A stretch of DNA of 64,000 nucleotides from Chloroflexota bacterium (GTDB lineage Bacteria > Chloroflexota > Dehalococcoidia > Lucifugimonadales > JADFKI01), in NCBI GenBank assembly GCA_009840355.1, contig VXNZ01000009.1, positions 62,001 through 126,000 on the forward strand, given 5' to 3'. The notes below the pieces were generated by a model. It made no database searches and was not told the DNA's origin. It saw nothing but the letters and a program-made list of their open reading frames with translations. Below are positions 18,516-19,666 of this stretch, one piece after another. The first letter of the stretch is position 1, and each line of letters opens with the position of its first letter. The translations under genes were made by a program, and so were the position numbers.

Positions 18516-19016
18516 ATGACAACCGACATTCCGCACGAAGTGCACGGAGACGAACTGCCACGCGGCGGGACGCGGCGCACGGTCGCCGTTGACTGCGAGC
18601 ATGTGGAGAAGATGCTGCACAGAGGCGAGCGCGAGCAGTTCGTGGTGTATTGCGACGAGCCGGAGCGCATGGGCGGCGATGACGCCTACCCGCCGCCGCT
18701 GACATACATCACGATGGGCATCGGCTTCTGACTGCTTACCCAGTTGAAGCGGTACGCTACAATGAGAAAAATCGTCATAGACGAAGCGCGCGTCCATGTG
18801 GAGATGGACTACTATCTGTCCGGCTCTGTGCTAGCCGGCACGGTAACCAGCGGCGTAACCGAAGTGCGCTCCGAGTTCCAAGTAAGCTCGCCCGCGCCGG
18901 AAGTGGACATCGCTTATGTAGTCCGGCTGGCAAAGAACGGCTGCTTCGCCGAGCGCCTTGTGGAAACGGCAGTGCCCATCAAAAGCACGCTGACGCTGAA
19001 CGGCAGGCAGATCTAA
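18516..19016 (+). CDS. OsmC family protein, candidate selenoprotein (in-frame UGA at 18729-18731)
   Basis: One OsmC/Ohr-like reading frame of about 166 residues is interrupted by a single TGA and continues in the same frame. Before it: GGDDAYPPPLTYITMGIGF. After it: LLTQLKRYATMRKIVI. In OsmC-family proteins the peroxidatic Cys lies 11 residues after the Pro of the NPxEL/PLEL helix start, which is exactly the UGA position here. The second Cys is kept (AKNGCFAERLVE). OsmC-like selenoproteins have been reported in marine metagenomes, so Sec is the natural reading. Expected role: thiol peroxidase for organic hydroperoxides. The ATG at 18516 has AGGTGAG upstream; an ATG at 18468 is also in frame. 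TATACT at 18451-18456 may be the -10. If UGA is a true stop, this is a pseudogene. Confidence 0.8.
18744..18762 (+). promoter_or_regulatory. candidate bacterial SECIS hairpin
   Basis: UUGAAGCGGUACGCUACAA folds as UUG-A-AGCG, loop GUA, CGCU-A-CAA: 3 bp, one A.A mismatch, 4 bp, triloop. The loop starts with GU, the usual bSECIS feature, and lies 20 nucleotides after the UGA, within the 16-37 range of known bSECIS elements. It is translated as part of the OsmC gene. Confidence 0.65.
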
Positions 19017-19039
19017 CATCGATGTACAGGATTACCGCC

Positions 19040-19666
19040 TTATTCGCCCGTATAGAACGCGGTCGTGCGCCTCGCAGCCGCATGCGCTATATCAGCATCA
19101 GTCCCAGCCGCTATCGCCGCTATCGCCCAGCCGTCGCTGCTGCCTGCGAAGAACGCCCTGCCAGAGTCTGAAGCGACAAATTCCGCCGCGCCCGGCATTG
19201 GCTCTATCGGCCGCTCCAGGTGAATCGCGAGTCCCAGCAGACCCCACTCCCAGCCGACTCCGGCAGCGCCCGGCCCGTACTCGTCCCAGTGCGCTGACAG
19301 GATAGCCGTATGCGTGAGCGTCAGGCGAACTTGCTCTTCTTCCGTGGCTTCCAGACTGACATCAACCCAACTCATATCGCCGCCGAACTCCCAGGTTACG
19401 GCGAAATGCGACAGCCGTTCGCACGCCGTGATTGTGCCGCTGGCATTGCCTTCCAACTGGAAGCGTCCACCAAGCTCCAGATTTCCGCTCACCGGGGTGA
19501 ACCAGCGGGAAATCCGTTCGGCATTCGTAACCCCGTCCCACACGTCCTCGATTGCCGCGTCAAAACTGCGGGACAGCGTAACCGCGCCGGCCGGCTGCCC
19601 ATCGCGCTCTAGCGCCGCCACCGAGCGCTCCACTGCAGCGAGATTAGATTGTACGTCGAAGTTCAT
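19040..19666 (-). CDS. SRPBCC/AHSA1-type START-domain protein
   Basis: A 208-residue protein of the activator-of-Hsp90-ATPase-like or polyketide-cyclase-like fold. Diagnostic segments are VTLSRSFDAAIEDVWDGVTNAERISRWFTPVSG, LGGRFQLEGNASGTITACE and VTWEFGGDMSWVDVSLEATEEEQVRLTLTHT. These proteins bind hydrophobic ligands; the function here is unknown. The ATG at 19666 has GGAG 7 bases upstream; earlier in-frame ATGs lack one. It is convergent with the OsmC gene and divergent from the SDR gene. Confidence 0.87.
   Translation of the reverse strand: MNFDVQSNLAAVERSVAALERDGQPAGAVTLSRSFDAAIEDVWDGVTNAERISRWFTPVSGNLELGGRFQLEGNASGTITACERLSHFAVTWEFGGDMSWVDVSLEATEEEQVRLTLTHTAILSAHWDEYGPGAAGVGWEWGLLGLAIHLERPIEPMPGAAEFVASDSGRAFFAGSSDGWAIAAIAAGTDADIAHAAARRTTAFYTGE

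Follow-up and report, generated by a model that had tools for sequence, protein, structure and literature searches.

An OsmC-family gene with an in-frame UGA, very probably encoding a working selenoprotein, in a SAR202-type Dehalococcoidia bacterium

In the 64,000-nucleotide stretch of DNA analysed here (the window), a reading frame resembling the OsmC family is crossed by a TGA codon, which raises the question of whether this codon ends one gene, marks a broken one, or is read as selenocysteine (Sec). An earlier note, made from the sequence letters, had proposed the last of these, and translation confirmed its claim that the TGA at 18729-18731 is the only in-frame stop inside 18516-19016 on the forward strand. 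A Pfam profile search with the read-through product returned a match to PF02566 (OsmC; E=1e-11, residues 54-156) that spans the UGA and scores 45.6 bits against a curated cut-off of 27.5, placing the protein in the OsmC superfamily. An AlphaFold model of the read-through protein, with a 40-row alignment as input, has a mean pLDDT of 92.2 and sets residue 72, the product of the UGA, within a helix of residues 61-83; the best PDB fold matches of this model are all of the OsmC/Ohr type, with E-values down to 8.5e-9. The proposed spacing between a Pro-Leu pair and the UGA also holds, as residue 72 lies 11 residues on from the proline of Pro61-Leu62. Comparison of the window gene with close relatives gave dN/dS values of 0.11-0.12. 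The frame at 18516-19016 is very probably a working gene for an OsmC-family selenoprotein of a SAR202-type Dehalococcoidia bacterium, and its features are collected in Table 1.

Table 1 Coordinates of the probable selenoprotein gene and its features in the window
Feature	Positions	Strand	Details
OsmC-family gene, very probably encoding a selenoprotein	18516-19016	+	166 aa if codon 72 is read as Sec; ends in TAA
Asp47-Glu48, conserved acidic pair	18654-18659	+	DE in 30/30 Sec rows
UGA codon 72, predicted Sec at the peroxidatic Cys column	18729-18731	+	ULLT = UxxT motif; UGA in 55/55 distinct genes
Bacterial SECIS hairpin	18743-18763	+	GUA tri-loop, A-A mismatch 18747/18759; from fold, relatives and covariation
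Cys143, presumed resolving cysteine	18942-18944	+	Cys in 30/30 aligned Sec rows

The strongest evidence on how this codon is read comes from homologues. UGA falls at a single common column in every one of 55 distinct genes sharing 28-95% identity (duplicates removed, with the window gene and a second copy on contig C3 counted in), the hosts being SAR202/Dehalococcoidia, Nitrospinota and Betaproteobacteria MAGs that include marine and sponge-associated uncultured bacteria; a scan of named genomes likewise found TGA in matches from named SAR202, Nitrospinota and Betaproteobacteria MAGs. At the family level, six genomes hold seven copies, six of which have exactly one stop, a TGA, and the orthologues from the five other family genomes each have a single stop that is always TGA. 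When 393 genomes of the class were searched, all matches above 51 bits had a single TGA, except that the C3 copy had two, and those at or below 46.6 bits were uninterrupted, bar one marginal fragment. Among more distant Chloroflexota OsmC proteins, the Sec column holds Cys in 10 of 10, with sites in Cys relatives reading GFCFMT and AFCMLT, and the same is true of two plasmid-borne OsmC proteins, PDB 3cje and the aligned PDB homologues. Close relatives therefore have UGA at this column and distant ones Cys, the pattern that the earlier note had named as support. In the joint alignment of Sec and Cys proteins only Pro59 and residue 72 are invariant.

Other residues around the site are also retained. 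Thr or Ser stands at position +3 of the UGA in all 55 genes except L069, which has a deletion there. The presumed resolving Cys, said at the outset to be kept, is Cys143, and Cys occurs at its column in 4 of the 10 Cys-type rows as well; the Asp47-Glu48 pair we take to be the counterpart of the Ohr/OsmC active-site Glu. In the phylogenetic tree, one branch (99/97) parts the Sec from the Cys rows, the latter being few, distant and long-branched. No Cys form was found among the 55 genes of the clade, the scope for Nitrospinota and Betaproteobacteria being a peptide-pattern scan, and the clade is entirely UGA-encoded within the sampled genes. Sister genes showed no stops beyond the UGA, save the decayed C3 copy and the frameshifted record L069. 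In the latter (L069:5928-6500, the SAR202-II-177A copy), 12 bases are missing just past the UGA and an upstream frameshift splits the gene; the deletion would put the SECIS too near the UGA and reflects either error or decay.

Insertion of Sec in bacteria depends on a SECIS, a stem with a G in its apical loop located 16-37 nt after the UGA. Folding of the window sequence gave a hairpin, TTG-A-AGCG-GTA-CGCT-A-CAA, at 18744-18762 with an additional G-U pair at 18743/18763, and its first loop base lies 20 nt from the UGA; in spacing, conservation and covariation it agrees with the bacterial SECIS. Taken singly, the hairpin is not distinctive. Shuffled versions of the 44-nt stretch after the UGA fold about as well as the stretch itself (z -0.32), and hairpins of at least 4 bp with a G opening the loop follow 90 of the 174 window TGAs flanked by open frame (40 codons or more upstream, 30 or more downstream). 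The 174 read-through frames came from a scan of the window (59% GC) for other Sec genes, and many of them resemble shadow frames or the ends of genes. A search of the window against Rfam returned nothing at gathering score. Because a single hairpin is weak evidence, the case for Sec rests on comparison. The claim of a bacterial SECIS thus stood as regards position, loop, conservation and covariation, but the lone hairpin is not significant and had been given too much weight.

The comparison revealed two stem registers among 53 genes (a count that leaves out L036 and L069). In 43 genes the stem closes on a GUA or GUU tri-loop, and each of its four uppermost pairs is present in 42-43 of these genes; in the other 10 it is shifted by one base and bears a GGUU-type tetra-loop. 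The apex GGU is almost invariant, and the apical GG is present in all 53 genes counted but the C3 copy. The covariation score was 0.360 for the tri-loop class (shuffled mean 0.134), with two-sided changes at three pairs, and 0.707 for the tetra-loop class (shuffled mean 0.199), with two-sided changes at six pairs; in neither class did any of the 500 shuffles or any slid version reach the observed score or percentage paired. The count of pairs with two-sided change did not stand out in the tri-loop class, where 380 of the 500 shuffles reached it, and support in this class therefore lies in the score and the paired cells. The above-chance signal is thus the UGA column conserved in 55 genes together with the covarying stem pairs.

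The machinery for decoding UGA as Sec, which the earlier note had suggested seeking as selA, selB, selC and selD in the same genome, was found in full. The host's own genome (3.28 Mb, 97% complete) encodes SelA (531 bits), SelB (342 bits) and SelD (389 bits), all above curated cut-offs, as well as a tRNA-Sec (66 bits) that ARAGORN calls SeC with anticodon TCA. The SelD gene (G000:C14:129387-130307, L013) itself contains a UGA, within the N-terminal motif CAGUAS. A tRNA-Sec was detected in 23 of the 24 genomes with the UGA gene, the exception being 57% complete, and also in 18 of the 22 genomes of the order that lack the gene; since it is common without the gene too, this co-occurrence is consistent with Sec decoding but weakly discriminating. 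Five genomes of the class (G271, G106, G295, G126 and G068) each have two or three matches resembling tRNA-Sec that pass the Rfam cut-off.

The same bin carries a second OsmC-Sec copy on contig C3 (G000:C3:3963-4457, L021; L086:3963-4457) at 79% identity, in which the apical SECIS loop G is changed to A, Ser replaces Cys143 and an additional in-frame TGA lies at codon 160. This copy is either a decayed true paralogue or part of a contaminant contig, the contamination figure for the bin being 4.3%. Adjoining it are an NHL beta-propeller gene and a 223-aa ORF with no Pfam match, which in L055 and L052 lie downstream of the only copy there and are absent beside the window copy (19016-19040); L055 (SAR202 bin90) is syntenic with most of the window locus. 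At G004:C5:445005-445888, the NHL beta-propeller gene is broken into two parts that lie in different frames, and one part contains an in-frame TGA.

These decay signs are what speaks for the view that an ordinary Cys gene gained the UGA through a nonsense mutation or a wrong base call. However, independent assemblies show the identical UGA in 55 distinct genes, and the window gene has a dN/dS of about 0.1 and no further disabling change, which leaves a pseudogene or sequencing error with a negligible probability. It is very improbable, too, that the locus comprises two genes, the upstream one encoding 71 aa and the other a 90-aa ORF starting at the TTG at 18744, or that the UGA is read as another residue: a mechanical ORF list does show both halves as ORFs, but codon 72 interrupts neither the OsmC domain nor the central helix, and UGA is a stop elsewhere in the window while the Sec machinery is present. 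Reassignment of the genetic code was also considered and is unlikely, because UGA still terminates 5 of the 31 window genes.

Decoding of UGA 72 as selenocysteine is, on the sequence and comparative evidence of the Sec column, SECIS, machinery and fold, very probable. In the proposed mechanism, SelB with Sec-tRNA(Sec) would bind the GGU-tipped hairpin just 3' of the UGA, leading to insertion of Sec at position 72. We infer that the gene is expressed and, from Ohr/OsmC, that the Sec72 selenolate of the folded protein would most likely reduce organic (fatty-acid-type) hydroperoxides; Sec72 may then pair with Cys143 as a selenenylsulfide (Se-S), which a small dithiol or a donor of the lipoyl type would reduce again, as happens in Ohr/OsmC. 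A peroxidase role, drawn by analogy, appears reasonably likely. There is a lesser chance, which we consider rather unlikely, that Sec is inserted yet the protein is another selenol or thiol redox enzyme and no peroxidase. The nearest solved relatives, 2opl and 3cje, are OsmC-like without a demonstrated substrate in their records, the sequence resembles OsmC-like proteins whose substrates are unclear more closely than it does Ohr, for which a peroxide substrate has been demonstrated, and the neighbouring genes (GMC oxidoreductase, AHSA1, SDR, luciferase-like), examined for a conserved operon, gave no functional hint and no peroxide link. Against this, the peroxidatic and resolving positions and the Asp-Glu pair are all conserved.

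A selenoprotein gene anchored in a genome with full decoding machinery indicates that SAR202-type Chloroflexota, a widespread and uncultured group that is difficult to study, put selenium into redox chemistry. Standard annotation would split the gene at 18516-19016 in two, and a search of a literature library for SAR202 with selenocysteine yielded just two papers, in each of which selenocysteine is mentioned once. We tentatively suggest, as a possibility still open to considerable doubt, that an essentially always-Sec OsmC subfamily was gained once and spread among Chloroflexota, Nitrospinota and Betaproteobacteria, serving organic-peroxide defence in SAR202-type bacteria; if true, selenium would be part of that defence.

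The precedent claimed for this family in marine metagenomes was borne out. OsmC-like selenoproteins with the motif UxxT were described from three sequences in a 2005 survey of the Sargasso Sea (Zhang et al. 2005, PMC1088965) and from five sequences in the Global Ocean Sampling (PMC2398784), and the group appears in two reviews (PMC13188914, PMC9312934). The window protein has in common with those of PMC1088965 the OsmC/COG1765 domain, the UxxT motif (ULLT here) and a bSECIS right after the UGA, this kinship being judged from the published motif and domain; because ULLT matches UxxT, the window gene joins an already described selenoprotein family. The published accounts rest on 3-5 sequences from metagenomes or on a single example accession, whereas the window gene lies in a near-complete genome with Sec machinery and belongs to a set of 55 genes from three lineages. 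What is new here is the host, the spread, the SECIS detail with its two stem registers, the all-UGA clade in the sample and the decayed C3 copy. Among solved structures, Jann_2040 (PDB 3cje) has the same fold, with CVMT (CxxT; the site reads GCVMT) at the Sec column and a second Cys in KKGCF that matches KNGCF of the window protein, but it has Cys for Sec and 21% identity in the fold match. The organic hydroperoxide resistance proteins of the Ohr/OsmC type (1vla, 6mjn and 1n2f) likewise share the fold and the two redox residues with the window protein, and differ from it in having Cys as the peroxidatic residue and 13-17% identity.
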